Assembly: GCF_900186465.1 (NCBI RefSeq) | Contig: NZ_LT891959.1 | Span: 124,001-188,000, forward strand | Direction: 5' to 3' | DNA: 64,000 nt | DNA from: Centipeda felix | Lineage (GTDB): Bacteria > Bacillota > Negativicutes > Selenomonadales > Selenomonadaceae | In this document: positions 19,288 through 64,000 of the stretch, piece by piece | How positions within the stretch are numbered: the first letter of the stretch is position 1 | Layout of the letters: every line of letters begins with the position of its first letter | The notes under the pieces: generated by a model | What the model was told of the DNA's origin: nothing | Databases searched by the model: none | The model's input: the letters and a program-made list of their open reading frames with translations, nothing else | Program-made: the position numbers and the translations under genes

Positions 19288-19312
19288 ACAATGTCCTCCC
19301 CCGCTTTGCCGT

Positions 19313-19479
19313 TAGGGAATCGCTGATAAAATGAAGTCCGTCAGATTGGCGTAGATTTTTCGCCCGATTGAGGAGGCAAACCGAACGCATAGCCAAAGCT
19401 ATGTGGAGGATTTGCCGACAAAAAGCGGGCAAAAAAGATGCGCTAAGATGGCGGTGCTGAATTTATCAGTGCTTCCCTA
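19313..19479. repeat. 167-bp MITE-like fold-back element with terminal inverted repeats
   Basis: The ends are inverted: TAGGGAATCGCTGATAAA on the left and, read from the other strand, TAGGGAAGCACTGATAAA on the right (16 of 18 identical). Inner segments also pair (TTTTTCGCCCG with CGGGCAAAAAA), so the whole element can fold back. It contains no gene. It fills the gap between the YqfO-domain gene and the methyltransferase-like gene. The outer TA could be a target duplication. A 15-base identical stretch of its right end recurs at 38801. Confidence 0.7.
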
Positions 19480-19899: not shown

Positions 19900-21429
19900 T
19901 CACTCGATGCTCAGTCCGACATCACTGCGCAGCTGTATCGCCTCAGCAATATGAGATGCTCCGATGATCGGTTTTCCGTCAAGATCGGCAATCGTCCTCG
20001 CCACCTTAATGATGCGGTCATGCGAACGTGCCGACAGCTGGATACGGTGAAATGCTGCTTCCAGCAGATGCTCTGCATCCTTCTCCATCGTACAGTACTT
20101 CTTGATCATGCTGTGATTCATCTGTGCATTACAAAAAAGCCCGTGACGTTCTAGGCGATCCCGCTCGATCGTACGTGCCCGCACCACGCGGGCACGTATC
20201 GCTGCAGATGACTCGGCCCGCTGCGTCGTATGCAAATCCGCATAATCCACACGCGATACACGAATATGAAGATCAATACGGTCTAATAACGGTCCCGACA
20301 GCTTGCGTGTGTAACGTTTGATCTCCCCTGCAGAACATTCACAGGTATGATCTTTATCGCCCAAAAATCCACAGGGGCATGGATTCATTGCCGCTACCAA
20401 AATGATACTAGAGGGAAACGTCAGTGTTGCGTTCGCACGCGAGACGGTAATCTGGCGATCCTCAATCGGTTCGCGCAGCACCTCAAGCGTCTTCTTGCTG
20501 AACTCCGGCAGCTCGTCGAGAAAGAGCACGCCGTGATGCGCAAGTGTCACCTCGCCCGGACGCGGGATGCTCCCGCCGCCGATCATCGCCACCGTCGAGG
20601 ATGTATGATGCGGACTGCGGAAGGGGCGCGTGGTTACAAGCCCCGTATCCTTGCCGAGCAGCCCCGAGATGCTGTAAATCTTCGTGATCTCGATGGCTTC
20701 TTGCTTCGTCAGTTCCGGCAGGATCGAACTCATCCGACGTGCCAGCATCGTCTTGCCCGAACCGGGTACGCCAACCATGAGGACATTATGTCCGCCAGCC
20801 GCTGCAATCTCAAGCGCACGTTTCGCCTGATACTGCCCCTGTACGTCCGCAAAGTCATCGGTGAAGGCCGCATCCTTTTTCTGTTCTGTTGCATGTGGCA
20901 CGGCAGGAGTCAGCACCTCTGTGCCGGTCAGATGGCGCACAAGCTGCGCCAGATTCTCGACCGCATAGACCTTCAGCCCGTCAATCAGGAGTGCCTCATC
21001 TGCATTGGAGGGAGCAACGTAAAACTCCGTAAGTCCCCGCTCACGCGCCGTGATTGCCATCGGGAGAATGCCGCTGATCGGACGGCAGTTTCCATCAAGG
21101 GAGAGTTCCGCAGAGAAGAGTGCACTCTGCACCGCCGCCTCCGGAACCATACCGTAGGATGCAAGGAGTCCGACCGCAATCGGCAGATCAAGCCCCGAAC
21201 TGTCCTTTCGCACATCGGCGGGTGCAAGATTCACCGTCACCCGCTCCTGCCGCAGCTGAATGCCCGAGTTGCGAATCGCCGTCCGTACCCGCTCCTTCGA
21301 CTCCTTCACCGACGTATCGGGAAGCCCCACCAGTTCAAAGCCCGGCAGCCCGGGCGACACATCCACCTCCACGTCGATAATCCGTCCGTCAATCCCGAGG
21401 GTCGTCGCACCATAGGTCTTTGCAAACAA
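19900..21429 (-). CDS. yifB: YifB/ComM-family Mg-chelatase-like AAA+ ATPase
   Basis: 509 aa, normal length. An N-terminal Lon-protease-like substrate domain (residues 1-170) is followed by the AAA+ module with Walker A VPGSGKTMLARR, Walker B VLFLDELPEF and the SPHHTSS motif, then a C-terminal Mg-chelatase lid with ARSHDRIIKVART. ComM-type members are helicases that promote branch migration during natural transformation. The start is TTG at 21429, preceded by GGGAGGG; the MFAKTYGATTLGI opening fits the family. The promoter and first 18 codons are duplicated about 880 bp upstream (22258-22392). Confidence 0.93.
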   Translation of the reverse strand: MFAKTYGATTLGIDGRIIDVEVDVSPGLPGFELVGLPDTSVKESKERVRTAIRNSGIQLRQERVTVNLAPADVRKDSSGLDLPIAVGLLASYGMVPEAAVQSALFSAELSLDGNCRPISGILPMAITARERGLTEFYVAPSNADEALLIDGLKVYAVENLAQLVRHLTGTEVLTPAVPHATEQKKDAAFTDDFADVQGQYQAKRALEIAAAGGHNVLMVGVPGSGKTMLARRMSSILPELTKQEAIEITKIYSISGLLGKDTGLVTTRPFRSPHHTSSTVAMIGGGSIPRPGEVTLAHHGVLFLDELPEFSKKTLEVLREPIEDRQITVSRANATLTFPSSIILVAAMNPCPCGFLGDKDHTCECSAGEIKRYTRKLSGPLLDRIDLHIRVSRVDYADLHTTQRAESSAAIRARVVRARTIERDRLERHGLFCNAQMNHSMIKKYCTMEKDAEHLLEAAFHRIQLSARSHDRIIKVARTIADLDGKPIIGASHIAEAIQLRSDVGLSIE

Positions 21430-21509
21430 CGGCCTTCCCTCCCACGTTTCAAATATAAGAAAATTATAACACAAGAGAGGGCTTGTTGCCTAATGATTCT
21501 TTGCAAAAG
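21376..21509. repeat. Direct repeat, copy 1: yifB promoter, ribosome site and first codons
   Basis: About 134 bp nearly identical to 22258-22392. Shared features are the coding start (LFAKTYGATTLGIDGRII), the ribosome site, a TATAAT box in identical context and the outer TAATGATTCTTT. Divergence is concentrated between the promoter and the outer end. Together the copies bracket the 186-aa gene. Confidence 0.9.
21463..21471 (-). promoter_or_regulatory. Extended -10 promoter of yifB
   Basis: Read leftward it is TGTTATAAT, a perfect extended -10 (TGn plus TATAAT), 33 nt upstream of the TTG start. No good -35 hexamer is seen at 17 nt. The same box exists in the duplicated copy at 22347-22355. 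Confidence 0.6.
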
Positions 21510-22189: not shown

Positions 22190-22312
22190 CTACATAGCCA
22201 TTTCCCCATAGAAATGGGGAATTTGATAATCAAGAAAAAGTTCATGCTCTTCTACATCAATAATCCGTCCGTCTATCCCGAGGGTCGTCGCACCATAGGC
22301 CTTTGCAAACAA
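22190..22312 (-). pseudogene. Truncated yifB start forming a 40-codon leader ORF
   Basis: TTG at 22312 reads MFAKAYGATTLGIDGRIIDV, identical in pattern to yifB residues 1-20, then diverges into 20 unrelated residues and stops at TAG (22190-22192). That TAG is the first part of TAGGAGG, the ribosome site of the 186-aa gene, so ribosomes ending here could reinitiate on that gene. It has its own copy of the yifB promoter. I regard it as a duplication relic that may act as a translated leader. Confidence 0.75.
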
Positions 22313-22392
22313 CGGCTCTCCCCTCCTACGTTTCAAATATAAGAAAATTATAACACAGGATGAAGGAAGATGGCTAATGATTCTTTACAAAA
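22258..22392. repeat. Direct repeat, copy 2 of the yifB start region
   Basis: Matches 21376-21509 with a few substitutions (for example CTATGGT preserved, ACC to GCC at codon 5). It carries the TGTTATAAT box at 22347-22355 and the ribosome site GTAGGAGGG, so it can drive the leader ORF and the 186-aa gene. Confidence 0.9.
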
Positions 22393-24678: not shown

Positions 24679-24722
24679 TTATACTATACTACAACTATTA
24701 CACAAAGAAAAGGAGTATGGAT

Positions 24723-25142
24723 ATGAACATGAGTAACGAATTTCTGCGCCTGATGGCAGCACATCAAGACCTCGCACTTGCAACATCGGTGGACAATACG
24801 CCCCATGTGCGCATTGTGAATTTTGTCTATGCAGAGGAGAAAAAGCTCGTCTACTTCGCAACCTTTCCAGACAATGCAAAGGTTAGTGAAATCGACGCAA
24901 ACCATACAGTTTCGTTCACCACGATCCCTCATGACGGGGGAACGGCACACGTCCGTGCCGTCGGCACTGCCGCGAAGAGCAAGCGCAGTATCTTCGACCT
25001 CGCCGATACCTTCACAGCAAAGATTCCGGGCTACGACGAAACAATTGCTGCGGTCGGTGACGCACTCATTGTCTACGAGATCACATTTCCCACTGCGACA
25101 GTGACCGTCGATATGGAACACAGTGGAACGGTGACGATTTGA
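24723..25142 (+). CDS. Pyridoxamine 5'-phosphate oxidase-like FMN-binding protein
   Basis: 139 aa from the ATG at 24723, which has AGGAG at seven-base spacing; the ATG at 24717 is too close to that site. The split-barrel pattern LALATSVDNTPHVRIVNFVY and KLVYFATFPDNAKVSEI is typical of the PNPOx-like flavin reductase/oxidase fold. The substrate is unknown. It is probably controlled by the divergent WYL regulator. It is the last host gene before the prophage, and a terminator follows. Confidence 0.85.
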   Translation: MNMSNEFLRLMAAHQDLALATSVDNTPHVRIVNFVYAEEKKLVYFATFPDNAKVSEIDANHTVSFTTIPHDGGTAHVRAVGTAAKSKRSIFDLADTFTAKIPGYDETIAAVGDALIVYEITFPTATVTVDMEHSGTVTI

Positions 25143-25283: not shown

Positions 25284-26855
25284 TCATCCATAAACACCAA
25301 TTTCAATCCCACCCTTGAAAACAACGACTGCCGCTCCGCCCTCCTTAACCACAATGTGCTCGAGCAGCCCACTCCATAGCTCCTCGTCAAACTCGACTTG
25401 TTCCCCGTTGATACCACATACCACTTGAATCATGCCCTCCAAGGTCTTTCTCTTGCCCTCCCTCTCGGCAATTTGCTCGTCCAACTTCTCCAAATGCCCC
25501 TGCTTGTCCAGATAGCGTGCGCGAATCTCATTTTCCTGTTTCAGATATGCGTTCTGATTCTGTGCCACCCGCGCATTCTCACGAATCAGTGTTTCAAGAC
25601 GTTCTGCCAAAACACCGAGTTCCTGCTCTACTTTATCCCGCTCCTCCGGCACCTCCTCCGTCTGACAAATGCTGTCTATCAGAGTTCGGAGTTCTGCAAT
25701 CACGTTCTCTTTGACTTCCACCAAGGAGTTCAGTGCCTTGACGAAAGTCTGTTTGATCTCCTCCTCTGTCAGATGCTTCGTGCTACACGGTTTGCCCTTG
25801 TGGGCATATTTCTTGTTGCAGCGGTAGATGACTCTGCGGTACTTGTCCGTCGAATGCCAGACCTTCGCTCCGTACCAACCTCCACAGCATCCGCATTTGA
25901 TTTTGTTCGCGAAGATGCTCACACCGCTGTGCTTGCCGTTCTGTTCTCTGCGTTTTATCTCCGCTTGCACAAAGTCGAATAAGTCCGGCGGGATAATCGC
26001 CTCGTGATGCTCCTCCACATAATACTGCGGAATCTCGCCCGTGTTTTTCCGTCGCGTCTTATCGAGGAAGTCCGCCGTATACTCTTTCTGGATCAGTGCA
26101 TCGCCACGGTACTTCTCATTTGTAAGGATGGATCGCACTGTGGAGATGTACCACTTGTCCTTTCCCGACGGAGATTTGATACCGCGCTTCTCCAGTTCCT
26201 TGGTGATAGCATAAAAGGATCGCCCGCCAAGGAAGAGTTTGTAGATGAGTCTCACGATTTTTGCCTGTTCTTCGTTGATTTGGAAATCCTTGTCATAGCC
26301 GAGAAATACACTGTAGCCCACACTGGTCTTGCCCTCGGCGAACTGCTTCCGTTTGCCCCATGTGGTATTTTCCGAAATACTGCGGCTCTCCTCCTGCGCT
26401 AGGCTGGACATAATTGTTATTAAAAGCTCGCCTTTTGTATCGAATGTCCAGATGTTCTCTTTCTCGAAGTAAATCTCTACACCGTTTTCCTTGAGTTTGC
26501 GGACGTTCTGCAGTGAATCCACAGTGTTTCTTGCAAAGCGGCTGACGGATTTTGTGATGATAAGGTCAATCTTGCCGGCAAGGGCATCCTCGATCATCTG
26601 GTTGAAGCCGTCACGCTTCTTAGTGTTGGTTCCACTTATTCCCTCATCCGAATACATGCCGACGAAATCCCAGTCTGCACGACTCTCGATGTAGTTCTTG
26701 TAATGCGCCATCTGCATTTCGTAACTGGAAGCCTGTTCTTCATGATCGGTCGAAACTCTAGCATATCCTGCCGTTCTGCGCCGCCTTGGTTCTGCCGTAA
26801 CCTCAGAACGAAAGATTTTAGGGCTTGCAGGGATGACCCTCACTGTCTTTGCCAT
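25284..26855 (-). CDS. Large serine recombinase (site-specific integrase), copy 1
   Basis: 523 aa. The resolvase domain starts near residue 28 (AGYARVSTDHEEQ), whose Ser is the attacking nucleophile. SVSRFARNTVD and QEESRSISENTTWG are typical catalytic-domain motifs. A recombinase domain, a zinc ribbon (CGCCGGWYGAKVW...C) and a coiled-coil C-terminal arm (residues about 420-480) follow. It inserts or excises the prophage between attP and attB. The ATG at 26855 has GGAGG upstream and the gene overlaps the second recombinase by 16 nt, so the two are made together. Confidence 0.94.
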   Translation of the reverse strand: MAKTVRVIPASPKIFRSEVTAEPRRRRTAGYARVSTDHEEQASSYEMQMAHYKNYIESRADWDFVGMYSDEGISGTNTKKRDGFNQMIEDALAGKIDLIITKSVSRFARNTVDSLQNVRKLKENGVEIYFEKENIWTFDTKGELLITIMSSLAQEESRSISENTTWGKRKQFAEGKTSVGYSVFLGYDKDFQINEEQAKIVRLIYKLFLGGRSFYAITKELEKRGIKSPSGKDKWYISTVRSILTNEKYRGDALIQKEYTADFLDKTRRKNTGEIPQYYVEEHHEAIIPPDLFDFVQAEIKRREQNGKHSGVSIFANKIKCGCCGGWYGAKVWHSTDKYRRVIYRCNKKYAHKGKPCSTKHLTEEEIKQTFVKALNSLVEVKENVIAELRTLIDSICQTEEVPEERDKVEQELGVLAERLETLIRENARVAQNQNAYLKQENEIRARYLDKQGHLEKLDEQIAEREGKRKTLEGMIQVVCGINGEQVEFDEELWSGLLEHIVVKEGGAAVVVFKGGIEIGVYG

Positions 26856-28333
26856 CGGTATGCGCCTCCTTCTTTGAGTTGAAATATGACTTCATCATCG
26901 GATATGACAATCCGCTCGACATTCTGTACGATCTTGCCCTCGTAGCAGTCACCGAACAAGGATTCTGCCGCTTCCTTGAGTTCGGATTCGGGCAGCCGTT
27001 TCAATCCGCATTTCGTGCATGGCTGACTGCAAGCCCACACCTTAGTGCCCTTCGTCCATGTATCGCGCTCACACTTGCTGCCGCAGGAGGCGCAGTACAC
27101 TTTGCTGGTGAAGGGATTGCTGCCGCGCTGCCCGGTGTAGATTCGGGCAGTCTTTTTTATGCGACCGTTGACGAGATGGAAGTCGATTCGATCACCGTGA
27201 ATGACAATCTTGGACACCTTATGCCTGAGTTCTGCAGCATCGAAATCGTCCTTCTCCATGACGGCTCTGACCGCAGCCACAAGCTCCTCTTCCTTGATTG
27301 GACGGCTGTCACAGGATTCTCTGCCTTTCCGCTCTCTCGTGTTGCATGCCCAGCGTCTGTATTTCCCTGCGGTTCTTCTGCTGAAGCCGCCTCCGCAACA
27401 TCCGCATTTCACCATTCCGGAAAATGGAAGAAGAACAGGATTCCGATTCACAGCCCGTTTGGCTCGTAACCTCCGCATCTCCTGTGCCTTGTCGAAGTCT
27501 GTCTTTGACACCAGAGGCTCGAACACGCCATCCACAAGATACATGGGAAGTTCACCTTTATTCCGTTTGCGGACACGCCCCTCGTTGATGTAGTTCTTCT
27601 GCAGTGCCATCGTGCCCGTATAGGAGATGTTGGAGAGGATGTCCTTTACCGTGGTCTGCTCAATGGGTCTCCCCTGCCGTCCTGTGATTCCGCGCCCTGC
27701 GAGACTCTTTGCGATGGCGTAGGCGGATTCTCCGGCAAGGTATCTTTGGTAAATCTCCTTTACAATCTCGCCCTCTGCTTGGATAATGCGGAACATCTCT
27801 CCATCCCAAGTGTAGCCGTACGGTGCTTTATGCCCGTTCGGAATCCCCTCTGCGAACCGTCGCCGCACGCCCCACCGAATGTTGTCGCCGATGCTTCTGC
27901 TCTCTTCTTGGGCAAAGGATGCGAGCAGCGTCAAGAGCAGCTCTCCGTCCTCGGATGTGGAATCAATGTTCTCTCGCTCGAAGCGGACGGCAATCCCCTT
28001 CTCTTTCAACCGTCGGACGGTATGAAGGCAATCCACGGTATCTCTGGCAAAACGGCTGATACTTTTGACGAGTACCAGATCAATCTTTCCGGCGTTGCAG
28101 TCGGCGATCAGCCGCTTGAACTCCGTCCGATGAGTGGTACTCGTGCCTGTGATGCCTTCATCTGCGTACACGCCTGCGTATTCCCATGCGGGATTTTTCT
28201 GGATGAGACTGCTGTAGTAACTGACCTGCGCTGCAAGGGAGTGGTGAAGCGTATCCACAGAGACGCGGGCATAGGCAGCCACACGCAGCTTTTTCTGCAA
28301 TATAGGGCTTGGTTGAACTCTTCGTATCTTCAT
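26840..28333 (-). CDS. Large serine recombinase, copy 2
   Basis: 497 aa from the ATG at 28333 (GGAGGGAGCACC before it). The catalytic domain begins VAAYARVSVD with the nucleophilic Ser, followed by SISRFARDTVD and QEESRSIGDN. It carries two zinc ribbons (CGCCGGGFSRR and CASCGSKCERD), more than copy 1, and ends soon after the second, so the long coiled-coil arm is absent. Paired recombinases at one end of Clostridia-type elements are known; either both are required or one serves another direction. A leader motif shared with three other phage genes lies just upstream. Confidence 0.94.
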   Translation of the reverse strand: MKIRRVQPSPILQKKLRVAAYARVSVDTLHHSLAAQVSYYSSLIQKNPAWEYAGVYADEGITGTSTTHRTEFKRLIADCNAGKIDLVLVKSISRFARDTVDCLHTVRRLKEKGIAVRFERENIDSTSEDGELLLTLLASFAQEESRSIGDNIRWGVRRRFAEGIPNGHKAPYGYTWDGEMFRIIQAEGEIVKEIYQRYLAGESAYAIAKSLAGRGITGRQGRPIEQTTVKDILSNISYTGTMALQKNYINEGRVRKRNKGELPMYLVDGVFEPLVSKTDFDKAQEMRRLRAKRAVNRNPVLLPFSGMVKCGCCGGGFSRRTAGKYRRWACNTRERKGRESCDSRPIKEEELVAAVRAVMEKDDFDAAELRHKVSKIVIHGDRIDFHLVNGRIKKTARIYTGQRGSNPFTSKVYCASCGSKCERDTWTKGTKVWACSQPCTKCGLKRLPESELKEAAESLFGDCYEGKIVQNVERIVISDDEVIFQLKEGGAYRWQRQ

Positions 28334-28356
28334 GGTGCTCCCTCCTTTCCAGTCCC

Positions 28357-28388
28357 ATATTCCCGTACTATCCGCACGATAGCAAGTC
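28357..28388 (-). repeat. Phage leader motif, copy A
   Basis: Read leftward: CTTGCTATCGTGCGGATAG then TACGGGAATAT. It is nearly identical to copy B at 42403 and related to C and D. It overlaps the last codons of the SHOCT-like gene and lies 24 nt before the recombinase start. Confidence 0.75.
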
Positions 28389-28553
28389 AATATCTGAAAA
28401 TAGAAGTCCGATGACGGGACGATATTTCTCGCGCATTTTCGCTTCAAACGCAAGATACTCGTCCTCTGACAAAAGCCCGCTCTGCAGCATTTTCCATGAA
28501 GCACGCATCACCATCTGATACGTCATTTCCCGAAGACCTTCTTCCTTGCTCAT
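28368..28553 (-). CDS. Small SHOCT-like phage protein
   Basis: 61 aa starting MSKEEGLREM. The C-terminal half, LLSEDEYLAFEAKMREKY, has the look of the SHOCT (short C-terminal) oligomerisation motif. Small SHOCT-like proteins commonly precede tandem serine recombinases in Firmicutes elements; the function is unknown. The ATG at 28553 is chosen because GGGAG lies eight bases upstream. It starts the recombinase operon immediately after element E4. Confidence 0.7.
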   Translation of the reverse strand: MSKEEGLREMTYQMVMRASWKMLQSGLLSEDEYLAFEAKMREKYRPVIGLLFSDIDLLSCG

Positions 28554-55004: not shown

Positions 55005-55038
55005 AAATTTCTCCTTTTTAATCACGGGGAAATCACAT

Positions 55039-55083
55039 CCCCTTTTCATAAGAGTGCAGACAGAAAAAGGGGAAGTGGTCACC
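55039..55083 (-). repeat. Phage E-element, copy E3
   Basis: On the + strand GTGCAGACAGAA, ten bases, then TGGTCACC; read leftward it is GGTGACCA, N10, TTCTGTCTGCAC, then ATGAAAAGGGG. It lies 35 nt upstream of the small gene start, at an operon head. Confidence 0.8.
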
Positions 55084-55209
55084 ATTTCTTAAAAGTTTTT
55101 TCAATCAAATTTATTTTGATAAATACATATGCTTCGGATTCCTTCATAGATGTTTGCAGGAAAACTTGTTTATGTACGCGAATATTAAAACGAATAAAGG
55201 AGGAGACAG

Positions 55210-55623
55210 ATGGTACGACCTATCGTCAAAGATGCCATGTTTCTCGGGCAGCCATCGGAGGAAGCTGTGAAATCCGATCTTTCTATTGCAAACGATCTGC
55301 TCGACACACTCAAAGCCCACGTCGGACATTGCGTCGGACTTGCTGCCAACATGATCGGAGAGAAGAAACGCATCATCGCTGTATGCGTTGGAAAATCTCA
55401 TCTTGTTATGCTGAATCCGGAGATTGTAAAATCCTCCTCGGAGCAATATGAAGCAGAGGAAGGATGCCTGTCCCTCCCTGGACAGAGAAAAACGCTGCGG
55501 CATGAATGGGTTGAAGTCGTATACCGTGATATAAAGTTCCGCAAACAGAAAAACAAGTTCTCAGGATTTACGGCACAGATTATTCAACATGAGATTGACC
55601 ACTGCAATGGCGTCTTGATATGA
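55210..55623 (+). CDS. def: Peptide deformylase (variant motif I)
   Basis: 137 aa, complete. Motif II EGCLSLPG and motif III QHEIDHCNG, which supply the metal ligands (Cys and two His) and the catalytic Glu, are intact. Motif I is GLAANMIG instead of GLAAxQ, so the Gln that helps stabilise the oxyanion is replaced by Met. Such forms occur in Firmicutes second copies. It removes the formyl group from new proteins. GGAGG precedes the ATG. It is rightward, opposite to the phage genes, and its terminator follows directly. Confidence 0.9.
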   Translation: MVRPIVKDAMFLGQPSEEAVKSDLSIANDLLDTLKAHVGHCVGLAANMIGEKKRIIAVCVGKSHLVMLNPEIVKSSSEQYEAEEGCLSLPGQRKTLRHEWVEVVYRDIKFRKQKNKFSGFTAQIIQHEIDHCNGVLI

Positions 55624-55660
55624 AACCCTCGGGCTGCGTTTATGGCAGTCCGAGGGTTTC
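55622..55660 (+). terminator. Terminator of the deformylase gene
   Basis: GAAACCCTCGGGCTGC and GCAGTCCGAGGGTTTC form a 16-bp stem with a G-U or mismatch. The right arm contains CAGTCCGAGG, the same as the terminator at 63698-63735. Confidence 0.85.
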
Positions 55661-55722: not shown

Positions 55723-55740
55723 TTATAGGAGGTGGTTCAC

Positions 55741-56334
55741 ATGACGCAGCAAACGACTATTATGAACCTCATCCATCAAAATAATGGTATGCTGACAACA
55801 GCAAAAGCTGTGTCTTCCGGCATATCCCGCAGCATGTTGGCGCATCTCGTCAAACGGGGACAGTTGCTCCGTCCCGCCCGTGGGGTATACACACTGCCCG
55901 AGATATGGGAGGATGAGTTTCTCAATTTGCAAACACGATTCAAACGTGGCATCTTTTCACACGAAACAGCTCTCTTCCTCTGGGATCTGACGGATCGAAC
56001 GCCGATCGCCTACCATATGACCTTCCCAACGAACTACAATCTGGCGAATCCGAAAAAGGAAGGCGTTCACTGCGCACAGGTGAAGGCGGAACGGTATGCA
56101 CTCGGCATAACAGAGATAAAATCTCCTGCCGGCAATTCGGTGCACTGCTACTCGATAGAACGGACACTCTGCGACATTCTGCGCCCACACCACGCTGCTG
56201 ATATTCAGATCACCGCAGAGGCGTTCAAACGCTACATGGACAGTCCGCAAAAAAAAATTCCTCTGCTCTCCGAGTATGCGCAGCGTCTCGGCGTAGAGAA
56301 AAAAATACGGACGTATTTGGAGGTCCTGCTTTGA
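55741..56334 (+). CDS. abiEi: AbiEi-family antitoxin/repressor
   Basis: 197 aa from ATG 55741 (AGGAGG eight bases upstream). The N-terminal winged helix (TTAKAVSSGISRSMLAHLVKRG) and C-terminal domain (HYTDVTFPTNY-like HMTFPTNYNLANP, YSIERTLCDIL) match AbiEi. It acts as DNA-binding repressor and antitoxin for AbiEii in type IV toxin-antitoxin systems. It overlaps the toxin gene by 4 nt. Confidence 0.92.
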   Translation: MTQQTTIMNLIHQNNGMLTTAKAVSSGISRSMLAHLVKRGQLLRPARGVYTLPEIWEDEFLNLQTRFKRGIFSHETALFLWDLTDRTPIAYHMTFPTNYNLANPKKEGVHCAQVKAERYALGITEIKSPAGNSVHCYSIERTLCDILRPHHAADIQITAEAFKRYMDSPQKKIPLLSEYAQRLGVEKKIRTYLEVLL

Positions 56335-57167
56335 AGAATGCCATGCAGTTAAAAGCGGCCATCAGCAAAATGGCAAAGGAAAAGCACATTCCTGCCCAGC
56401 TTGTGATGCAAAACTATATGTTGGAACGCCTGTTGGAGCGCATCTCTCGTTCAAAATATCAAGGGAACTTCATCCTCAAAGGCGGACTGTTGATCGCCTC
56501 AATGGTTGGTCTTCATTCGCGTGCCACAATGGATATGGACGCCACCATCCGAAATCATCCCATGAACGAGAACAGCATAAAAACAATGTTCGAGGAAATC
56601 ATCTCCATCCCCATCGACGATAATATAAGCTTCAGCTTCCAAGGTGTAGGAAAAATCCGAAAAAACGATGCCTACGGTGGATACCGCATCTCACTGACCG
56701 CAAACTTCCCCCCTATGAGAGTTCCACTGAAACTGGACATTACAACCGGCGATAAGATCACCCCTGAAGCAATCGAATACAACTATCCGATGATGTTCAG
56801 CGACGATACGTTGGAGATTTTTGCGTACAATCTTGAGACGATTCTCGCCGAAAAATTGGAGACGGTAATCTCTCGCGGCGACCAAAACACACGTCCAAGA
56901 GATTACTATGACATTTTCATCCTCAGCAAGCTGAAAGGACATGAGATTGATCGTGACACTTTACATAAAGCACTGTCCGAAACTGCGCAAAAGCGCAATT
57001 CCGGTGACCTAATCCCGCAGTATCACAGTATCATGGGGCAGATTGTAAAGAGCAGTGCAATGCAGCAACACTGGAAAACATATCAGCGCGATTATGAATA
57101 TGCGAGAGAAGTCGAATTTTCCTCGGCCTGCGAAACCATTATCAAGATTATGGATTCACTTCGTTGA
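56331..57167 (+). CDS. abiEii: AbiEii-family nucleotidyltransferase toxin
   Basis: 278 aa with TTG start overlapping the antitoxin stop (GGAGG upstream). Key motifs are FILKGGLLIA (motif I, KGG), SRATMDMDATI (D-x-D metal ligands), KLDITTGDKITP and a conserved ILAEKLETVISRG with the catalytic Lys/Arg, then RPRDYYDIFIL. It is thought to transfer nucleotides to tRNA or other RNA, arresting the cell upon phage infection. It converges on the DNA polymerase gene. Confidence 0.93.
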   Translation: MKNAMQLKAAISKMAKEKHIPAQLVMQNYMLERLLERISRSKYQGNFILKGGLLIASMVGLHSRATMDMDATIRNHPMNENSIKTMFEEIISIPIDDNISFSFQGVGKIRKNDAYGGYRISLTANFPPMRVPLKLDITTGDKITPEAIEYNYPMMFSDDTLEIFAYNLETILAEKLETVISRGDQNTRPRDYYDIFILSKLKGHEIDRDTLHKALSETAQKRNSGDLIPQYHSIMGQIVKSSAMQQHWKTYQRDYEYAREVEFSSACETIIKIMDSLR

Positions 57168-61196: not shown

Positions 61197-61320
61197 GGCA
61201 ATCTGTCTGATTGCCAGAAGATTAGCTGTGAATTTTAACTCACATTCTGCTTCCCCCCTTTCACTAGGGTGCAGACAGAATGTGATCATTTGGTCACCTT
61301 ATTTCAAAATATTTTTTGAA
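61197..61320. repeat. Imperfect tandem repeat, unit 1 (contains E1)
   Basis: About 124 bp similar to 61380-61502 at an offset of 183 bp. It starts with GGCAATCTGTCTGATTGCC, a 7-bp hairpin, and contains element E1 at 61254-61298, with an in-frame stop relative to unit 2. Confidence 0.75.
61254..61298 (-). repeat. Phage E-element, copy E1
   Basis: On the + strand GTGCAGACAGAA, ten bases, then TGGTCACC. It is about 100 nt upstream of the 83-aa gene start. Confidence 0.8.
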
Positions 61321-61379: not shown

Positions 61380-61502
61380 GGCAATCTGTCTAATCGCCGG
61401 AAAATCAACTGTGAGTTTTACCTCACATTCTGCTTTCCCCCTTTCACTAGGGTGCAGACAGAACGGGGCTTAATGGTCACCGTATTTTCAAGTTTTTTTC
61501 GG
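61380..61502. repeat. Imperfect tandem repeat, unit 2 (contains E2)
   Basis: Matches unit 1 over the hairpin-like start (GGCAATCTGTCTAATCGCC), the TCACATTCTGC box and element E2. It forms the last codons of the sigma-like gene. Confidence 0.75.
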
Positions 61503-62616: not shown

Positions 62617-63423
62617 TCAAAAGGGGATATCATCTTCGTCGAACACTGGGGGATCATCTTCCAAGTCATTCTGCATGAATGCATCAATGACGTATCGTAT
62701 GTTCTTGTCAATTTTTGGATGTCTCATGTTCTCACTGACGGTTGTATATAAGCCATCAATAAGGCGAGAAATCGTAGCTTCTCCCTTATTATCGCAAAGG
62801 AACTGAGGTTCCTGTCCCGGCGAGGTCATCCAGATTTCTATGGCAAAGGTATCAGGATCTGAAAAAGATGAGTATGTTTTACAGATATTCATTAGATGTA
62901 AAAGTGTACCGTTCTTCATTCGTAAGGAATAACAATCCTTATGTATCCCCGTATTGCAATCAAAGTTATGAGACGCGAAGACAACCTGAGTAACTTCTCC
63001 GACTGATTCATCGTAATCATTTGATGCATCGTACGTACGTAATTTGAATAATGGATGCCCAGTATCACCATATTGATCTTCCTGCAGTCGATTTAATTCC
63101 TCTTTCGATTCCCGTACCCAGTTAAGACTATCTGATACAGTGTCACTATTTAGCTTGCCCAAAAACGACATAAGATACTTCTCGGTCGGCGTAGCGTTTG
63201 TCAAATCTGCCCGCAGTAAAGTGTCGACATTGATCTGCAGCAACTCTGCGATCTTCATTACAAACTCGACCCCCGGCTTTGACTTTTCGTCCTTGCTGGC
63301 ACGAGAAATATATCCGGCACTAACTCCTGCACTGTTCTCAATCTCACCTATTTTTAGATCATGCTTCTTTATCAAATAGGAGATATTGTCAAAAAACAAA
63401 GTTCTATCGAAATCTGTTGGCAT
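62617..63423 (-). CDS. XRE-family prophage repressor
   Basis: 268 aa from ATG 63423 (AGAGGTGACA upstream). Residues 5-65 are an HTH_3 (LIKKHDLKIGEIENSAGVSAGYISR, split by limits), followed by a long C-terminal domain with an acidic end (DDPPVFDEDDIPF). No LexA-like Ser-Lys protease motif is visible, so induction may use another mechanism. It likely maintains lysogeny. It has a good promoter with paired CGTCAAC sites upstream. Confidence 0.82.
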   Translation of the reverse strand: MPTDFDRTLFFDNISYLIKKHDLKIGEIENSAGVSAGYISRASKDEKSKPGVEFVMKIAELLQINVDTLLRADLTNATPTEKYLMSFLGKLNSDTVSDSLNWVRESKEELNRLQEDQYGDTGHPLFKLRTYDASNDYDESVGEVTQVVFASHNFDCNTGIHKDCYSLRMKNGTLLHLMNICKTYSSFSDPDTFAIEIWMTSPGQEPQFLCDNKGEATISRLIDGLYTTVSENMRHPKIDKNIRYVIDAFMQNDLEDDPPVFDEDDIPF

Positions 63424-63451
63424 TTTTGTCACCTCTTTCAATTGTGATCTC

Positions 63452-63513
63452 ATTTTATCAGATATTTATGTACTCGTCAACTGTTTTTATTGATTTTATA
63501 TTTTCGTCAACAG
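63452..63513 (-). promoter_or_regulatory. Repressor promoter with two CGTCAAC operator-like repeats
   Basis: Read leftward TTGACG (63475-63480) and TAAAAT (63452-63457) are spaced 17 bp. CGTCAACTG at 63475 and CGTCAACAG at 63505 (30 bp apart) are direct repeats; one overlaps the -35. They are candidate autoregulatory operator sites. Confidence 0.65.
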
Positions 63514-63612
63514 ACTTTGTCACATGATTAACTCTACAACATTTTCTATATTATCATCCAGGATACTCCTATAAATAATATTCCTACTCACATTCATCAA
63601 AAAACTGCTGTT
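63514..63612. other. Non-coding stretch at the right prophage edge
   Basis: AT-rich sequence with no gene. With the promoter region to its left and the deformylase remnant to its right, it forms a 327-nt gap between the repressor and the flavodoxin-like gene. The right attachment site is expected here, but no repeat with the left end was visible. Confidence 0.5.
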
Positions 63613-63699
63613 ATGCAAATAAAGTTGACATTTCTCTTCAGCTTTACGACATAAATCAGTCAACATGAAATGGAGCACCGCAACGGAGTTCTTATGTAA
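63613..63699 (+). pseudogene. Decayed 3' end of a peptide deformylase gene
   Basis: The rightward frame ends FSFTT-stop-ISQHEMEHRNGVLM-stop. QHEMEHRNGVLM lines up with motif III QHEIDHCNGVLI of the intact deformylase at 55210, including both His and the Glu, and FSFTT with FSGFTA before it. One in-frame TAA interrupts it and the upstream part is not recognisable. A terminator similar to that of the intact gene follows immediately. Confidence 0.75.
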
Positions 63700-63735
63700 A
63701 AACCTCGGACTGCCTATTCTCAGTCCGAGGTTTTT
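63698..63735 (+). terminator. Terminator at the right prophage edge
   Basis: AAAAACCTCGGACTG and CAGTCCGAGGTTTTT are a perfect 15-bp inverted repeat with an eight-base loop. It works in both directions, ending the deformylase remnant and the flavodoxin-like gene that faces it. Confidence 0.9.
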
Positions 63736-63750
63736 GATTCTAAAATATTC

Positions 63751-64000
63751 TTAGCCGATCTTCGCCGCAAGCACATCTGCCTCGCGTACCGATGTCACCA
63801 TGCCGAGATACGTCAATCCGTAGAGATCAGCAAAACGGCGCATTGTGTATTCGCCCGCCTCCAGCATCCACTTCTCAGGTGCTGCACCTTGGAAAAGGAA
63901 GGCAATCTGCCCGTGAAGACTCCCCGCCTCGACAGGACCGTAGAATCGATCCAGCAGATTGCGCACAGCGCCACAGATATTGTGCCAATAAAGCGGCGAA
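63751..64000 (-). CDS. Flavodoxin/NADPH-dependent FMN reductase-family protein, C-terminal part (cut by window edge)
   Basis: 83 codons are inside the window and the frame is open to base 64000. It reads SPLYWHNICGAVRNLLDRFYG at the beginning, with SPLYW and the following helix typical of flavodoxin-fold NAD(P)H-dependent FMN reductases, then GQIAFLFQGAAPEKW and an end helix. It carries the FMN-binding aromatic region; the N-terminal phosphate loop lies outside. It is a host gene flanking the prophage. Partner and substrate unknown. Confidence 0.8.
   Translation of the reverse strand, partial: SPLYWHNICGAVRNLLDRFYGPVEAGSLHGQIAFLFQGAAPEKWMLEAGEYTMRRFADLYGLTYLGMVTSVREADVLAAKIG

Follow-up and report, generated by a model that had tools for sequence, protein, structure and literature searches.

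The decayed end of a phage-type peptide deformylase beside the repressor region of a Selenomonas prophage and its possible origin in cargo exchange

Temperate phages carry variable defence and metabolic genes at one place of otherwise similar prophages. The locus described here is alike, with the difference that its element seems to end in comM fragments and that one joint of its cargo runs through a shared terminator. Phage peptide deformylases (PDFs) are already well known, among them orf60T of Vibrio phage VP16T (PDB 5mtc), the structure 3uwa, which was deposited under the name carried by a gene of Synechococcus phage S-SSM7, and the family phrog_2890. The intact PDF of the prophage studied here is likewise short and phage-borne, and a structure search found both 5mtc and 3uwa. 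However, it belongs to the PRK09218 branch, with AANM in place of AAxQ in motif I, and the scrap of a second copy, with which this study is concerned, is no gene. Among 50,697 phage records, 156 matched the intact gene (E up to 1e-5), none of them above 60% identity, the best (59.9%) being an unannotated gut phage. Accessory PDFs have been surveyed on plasmids and integrons (PMC12690207), where an extra PDF on mobile DNA also occurs beside the housekeeping def; the portion of the survey available to us deals with plasmids and integrons and leaves prophage-borne PDFs untreated, save for phage-plasmids and the type 4 PDFs in marine phages. Phage-borne deformylases matter because, according to work cited in the available part of PMC12690207, prophages of Vibrio are triggered when deformylase is inhibited. 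As far as the accessible text of PMC7508600 goes, comM is likewise the island gene of the AbaR islands, which sit in comM of Acinetobacter, whereas here the left-hand comM is intact and the right-hand one is reduced to its 5' part (aa 1-364). Literature on these Selenomonas prophages was not among the results listed by our search, which is no proof of its absence.

The window, i.e., the whole stretch of DNA that was analysed, is 64,000 nucleotides long and corresponds to G000:C17:124001-188000, where G000 is the genome that holds it. It was compared with a genus set of 14 Selenomonas genomes, G000 included. The features that are relevant to the argument are as follows:

19900-21474, reverse strand: comM, intact
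24717-25142, forward strand: PNPOx-like gene, intact, on the left flank
25284-26855 and 26840-28504, reverse strand: two large serine recombinases, left end of the phage part
55210-55623, forward strand: intact phage peptide deformylase of 137 aa (PRK09218/NF006670; phrog_2890), by profile match
55624-55660, forward strand: hairpin terminator of the intact deformylase, related to 63698-63735
55732-57167, forward strand: AbiEi/AbiEii pair adjoining the intact deformylase
62617-63453, reverse strand: repressor-like HTH protein of the prophage, with weak model matches only
63454-63636, no strand: upstream region of the repressor-like gene, the last stretch common with the G002 and G003 prophages
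63635-63699, forward strand: fossil 3' end of a PRK09218-type PDF, by translation, BLAST and alignments
63698-63735, no strand: perfect hairpin that probably serves the FMN-reductase cassette as a bidirectional terminator, by folding and pattern search
63751-64000, reverse strand: 3' portion of the gene for an NADPH-dependent FMN reductase; the gene extends to contig position 188200

The scrap at 63635-63699 is a genuine but defunct 3' remnant of a deformylase gene of the phage type and is without coding function. It measures about 21 codons, encodes QHEMEHRNGVLM at 63661-63696 on the forward strand and closes with the stop codon TAA at 63697-63699. Motif III is present while motifs I and II are absent, and a further TAA at 63652-63654 stands in the same frame as QHEMEHRNGVLM; hence, the scrap is no open gene and lacks the open frame with motifs I-III that is required of a PRK09218 gene. 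Its ending fits this branch, as the PRK09218 members that were aligned end right after motif III, whereas the housekeeping PDF extends further. Copies of the scrap in G000, G001 and G007 are 97-98% identical over 130/131 bp and share the same nonsense codon, which indicates that the decay preceded the parting of the three copies. Any-part matches to this 131-bp stretch were obtained in 7 of the 189 genomes of the family, and a search of the phage records with 63560-63760 returned no match.

Alignments of the remnant plus terminator were made against eight targets, with 300 shuffles for each. Against the intact gene at 55 kb, 75/96 positions were identical (score 46, shuffle maximum 17), against the G003 gene 81/99 (score 56, shuffle maximum 17) and against a PDF relic in G001 78/93 (score 56, shuffle maximum 17), while the full gene of G001 gave 76/96 and the G007 gene 75/96. 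The five Selenomonas PDF ends thus scored 46-56 with shuffles of at most 19, and the PDF end of G002, which is without this terminator, still matched at 46/61 (score 31). The targets from other genera came close to their shuffles (G032 21, maximum 19; G022 20, maximum 18), so the homology is plain only against the Selenomonas genes. In whole-genome BLAST with the right-edge DNA, E-values were 9e-17 to 2e-15 for the relic of G001 and the gene of G003, and 8e-11 to 3e-10 for the full gene of G001; the window's own gene and those of G007 and G002 were not reported by this search. A chance match of the remnant was ruled out by the shuffles and the whole-genome E-values. An earlier note on this DNA had proposed that a decayed deformylase end with a terminator at 63.6-63.7 kb mirrors an intact gene with a related terminator at 55.2 kb in the same orientation, and these alignments bear it out: the remnant is real, both copies lie on the forward strand, the genes as well as their terminators are related, and the intact gene (55210-55623) ends in QHEIDHCNGVLI ahead of the hairpin at 55624-55660.

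The intact deformylase scored 198.2 bits over residues 1-137 against PRK09218/NF006670, for which the curated cut-off is 162 bits. Its metal-binding motifs II and III, EGCLSL and QHEIDH, agree with the EGCLS and QHExDH forms. Motif I reads CVGLAANMIG and departs from the AAxQ form, which is the one given for motif I in the accessible part of PMC12690207. Met replaced the Gln of motif I in all 17 PRK09218-type sequences that were aligned (AANM vs. AAxQ), whereas Gln was found at this position in the one housekeeping sequence aligned; the 17 comprised 14 of the 16 genomes over the cut-off and three viral contigs, two genomes having been omitted from the motif alignment since their genes were split or incomplete. 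The AANM-bearing set consists of window 55210-55623, L005-L017 and L118-L120. In the genus set, genes above the cut-off were present in 5 of the 14 genomes, every one within this prophage family. A decayed prophage of G001 additionally holds a PDF relic covering about aa 62-137 with its terminator, which demonstrates that such PDF relics do arise.

The hairpin at 63698-63735 has the form AAAAACCTCGGACTG-8 nt-CAGTCCGAGGTTTTT and folds at -24.4 and -24.2 kcal/mol on the two strands (z -8.7 and -8.0). It was not listed by a consensus terminator scan because its stem absorbs the T run that is expected after the stem. It could plausibly stop transcription of the cassette ahead of the repressor. All 38 bases are the same in G010, where no deformylase lies upstream, and in G170 both arms have changed with pairing kept (AAGAA/TTCTT). 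The likeness to the terminator of the intact deformylase includes CAGTCCGAGG at 55646-55655, 3' of that gene. With one mismatch allowed, the shared 10-mer had seven matches in the window, a number that was reached by 5 of 100 shuffles, and exact CCTCGGACTG occurred 21 times in the genome vs. once for the reversed control. The 10-mer is therefore over-represented, the terminator likeness could be partly coincidence, and by itself the shared 10-mer proves little. The full hairpin form, AACCTCGG[AG]CTG-N4-14-CAGTCCGAGGTT, was found at six places in the 14 Selenomonas genomes, namely at two PDF 3' ends (G003 and the G001 relic) and at four cassette terminators (G000, G001 and G007 with the scrap, G010 without it); the terminator of the window's own intact gene is off by one base and falls outside this form. 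A common terminator stem as the explanation of the likeness was, thus, only partly rejected, given six places in 14 genomes for the full form and 21 in G000 for the bare 10-mer.

The scrap is bounded by joints on both sides, as is evident from the divergence of related prophages at 63636 and the start of the cassette at 63698. In the prophages of G002 and G003, the likeness to the window extends to 63636, and different sequence follows. To the right of this joint, scrap and terminator stand together with the FMN-reductase cassette in the window, G001 and G007; the FMN reductase is the outermost gene of this cassette, which also holds esterase-like, aldo/keto reductase, flavodoxin, hydrolase, MerR and HepT-like genes. 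In G010, G170 and contig C15 of G000 (G000:C15), the shared sequence of terminator and cassette begins exactly at 63698, with an identity of 100% over 293 bp in G010, 99.2% over 1563 bp in G170, which belongs to another genus, and 98% over the first 63 bp and 82% over 253 bp in G000:C15. These three have a common left neighbour that is different from the scrap, and no PDF sequence precedes the cassette in any of them. Not counted as copies of the cassette or the scrap were a 71% match in G013, which concerned the FMN-reductase gene alone, a 26-base match in G009 and a 59-base match of 75% in G060. At the left joint (~63632-63636), TTCTC is common to the G002/G003 phages and the PDF genes; the joint reads TTTCTCTTC in the window and TTTTTTCTTC in G001 and G007, i.e., TTTCTC vs. 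TTTTTTC. At the right joint, AAAACCTCGG is found in both the cassette and the PDF (in G003). Recombination may have taken place via these short matches.

What lies beyond the repressor region changes from one prophage to the next. Past the joint, G002 carries genes for an MvaI/BcnI-type endonuclease, a DNA methyltransferase and AbiH, and G003 has DNA resembling the start of the G002 endonuclease plus an AbiH gene. Past its last phage-like similarity, the second prophage of G000 (at G000:C15) carries LmuA/AAA_13-like, two methyltransferase-like and ORF6N genes, and LmuA/AAA_13-like genes stand at the corresponding place of IMG/VR contig 649989997. The defence genes among these (MvaI/BcnI-type endonuclease, methyltransferase, AbiH and LmuA/AAA_13-like genes) stand at loci L061, L091, L098, L116 and L122, in the interval beyond the repressor region. 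The prophage part of the window runs from the serine recombinases (25284-28504), the only recombinase genes among the subset of genes scanned, to the repressor-like gene (62617-63453). Farther right, at G000:C17:194.99-196.08 kb and thus ~7 kb outside the window, the 5' part of comM (aa 1-364) is found again, and this right-hand fragment adjoins a conserved element end of ~30 bp. The junction, comM codon 364 followed by the ~30-bp element end, is constant: the pattern (two mismatches at most) had 17 occurrences, spread over 10 of the 14 genus genomes, and none in the reversed control. Each of the 17 resembles comM as far as aa 364; in 13 the likeness forms a single 1-364 stretch, and in four it is shorter or in pieces. 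The identity at the junction is 84.6-99.7% in 16 and 74% in one (G011). The two serine recombinases may be what makes this junction. In all six prophages in which both marks were located (the window in G000, G000:C15, G001, G002, G003 and G007), this junction follows the last phage-like similarity at a distance of 4.6 to ~12 kb. It is from these junctions that we infer the element ends, and the right end of the integrated element seems to lie at G000:C17:194,958-194,989, ~7 kb beyond the window, with 63.6 kb as an inner border. The description of this point as the prophage edge consequently stands insofar as phage-conserved sequence stops at ~63.6 kb, but apparently not for the integrated element as a whole. 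No left attachment junction was found and the left comM is whole; an element that imported its own comM 5' part would explain the missing left junction.

On balance, the scrap is probably the scar of a cargo exchange beside the repressor, left between the repressor region and the accessory cassette. From the repressor to the comM-fragment junction, the element behaves like an exchangeable cargo slot, in which the 3' end and terminator of a second phage-type PDF may once have stood beside the repressor region. Attachment of the FMN-reductase/hydrolase cassette, which has a related terminator, would have followed at the terminator arm (63698), with the remainder of the PDF being lost near the TTCTC match at ~63632-63636. 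Subsequently, the composite may have been inherited or transferred whole to at least three Selenomonas genomes. The homology, the decay, both joints, the alternative contexts and the variation in cargo are established, while the order of these events, recombination at the short matches and the role of a PDF as former cargo of the slot are inferred; among the prophages found, none has an intact PDF in the slot. The shortness of the matches at the joints is a point against such a scar, and our confidence was reduced further because the left joint differs in G001 and G007 and because the 10-mer is over-represented. The ancestral state may have been either PDF-terminator-cassette or the cassette with the other left neighbour.

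The order PDF-terminator-FMN reductase could also be the old order of the cassette, in which case the scrap came with the cassette and the PDF was lost from G010, G170 and G000:C15. This is possible, though we consider it unlikely. The terminators of the cassette and the PDF share the full hairpin form, which is confined to the six places in the 14 genomes and could mean that the terminator first belonged to the PDF; however, three of the six cassette copies, from two genera, share the other left neighbour right up to the terminator, and none of the three retains PDF sequence. Less probable still is that the PDF end was placed by copying from the 55 kb gene or by recombination between two phage copies in one cell, even though G000 and G001 each have more than one prophage of this family. 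The suggestion of the earlier note that the cargo was copied from the flanking locus fared poorly for the same reasons, as did the reverse. The scrap resembles the gene of its own prophage (75/96) less than it does the gene of G003 (81/99) and the relic of G001 (78/93), a gap that is small, would alone be weak evidence and concerns a scrap whose 63 bp are too short for a firm tree. The equal decay with an identical nonsense codon in three genomes also speaks against copying.

The interruption of a host deformylase was considered separately. Model searches found a phage gene together with the housekeeping def in each of G000, G001 and G007; in G000, where the phage gene is intact, these two were the only matches, and G001 has one relic besides (aa 63-136 by the model). 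No 5' PDF part was found in these three genomes, although such a search would miss a fragment of the scrap's length. The housekeeping def of G000 is open and lies elsewhere (G000:C17:427696). As the PNPOx-like gene of the left flank is intact, no host gene was cut there. A pairing of this gene with the scrap as two parts of one broken gene was also considered, as the C-terminus showed a faint resemblance by eye, but was rejected since the gene is full length in relatives (141/141 residues, 97-99% identity in G003, G006, G008, G009 and G000:C15). None of the relatives compared showed a simple empty site for the element as a whole; G010 was rejected as an empty site because another mobile remnant lies on its left, and G004 has the order SDR-WYL-PNPOx without recombinases within the 20 kb examined. 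It is, thus, very improbable that the phage integrated into the 3' end of a chromosomal deformylase, so that the scrap would be the right half of attB and the gene at 55 kb a replacement, for although serine integrases often use conserved gene motifs and the joint at 63636 sits where phage-conserved sequence stops, no 5' part was found in G000, G001 or G007, the left flank is whole, PRK09218 genes are prophage-borne with a relic in the decayed G001 prophage as the sole other piece found in the 14 genus genomes, the cassette occurs without a PDF elsewhere, and the conserved comM junction lies beyond it. The proposal that integration had occurred at or near a chromosomal deformylase therefore gains no support, while the accompanying caution that a simple interruption is not supported proved sound.

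These results remove an unsupported story, that of a phage breaking and replacing a host deformylase, and under the favoured reading of a cargo-exchange scar the scrap would be a marker of the variable cargo region beside the repressor and of the exchange of prophage cargo. Such a scar would be ordinary phage mosaicism, and the better leads are the comM-bounded cargo slot and the Met-for-Gln branch of PRK09218. A broader proposition, which we regard as doubtful, is that comM-bounded Selenomonas phage islands keep a slot from the repressor to the attachment end, in which shared terminators act as swap joints that insulate the repressor, the scrap being a trace of one such swap. If terminators do act as joints, this would provide a simple, testable rule for the uptake of insulated accessory genes by temperate phages.

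Several minor observations were made along the element. As a side lead, comM is an integration hot spot in the genus: 5' fragments of comM with the element end occur up to three times per genome, a whole comM is also present in G000 and G010, and the sites concerned include window 19900-21474 and 22243-22392 and G000:C17:194958-196160. The first serine recombinase gene is cut at about codon 141-145 (window 26420-26437; L095:4099, L126:4906, L086:9827), with the N-half kept in two G001 prophages and the C-half in G010, and the flanks differ each time. A dispersed repeat of ~170 bp, present at window 19311-19479, was found in the stretches examined from 7 of the 14 genus genomes (G000, G001, G002, G005, G006, G007 and G008). 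Moreover, a non-coding repeat, GGTGCAGACAGAA...GGTCACC, stands at 55038-55102, 61197-61316 and 61380-61499, close to minus-strand phage genes; its first copy varies, and the alignments with G001 and G003 suggest one fewer copy at 61 kb.
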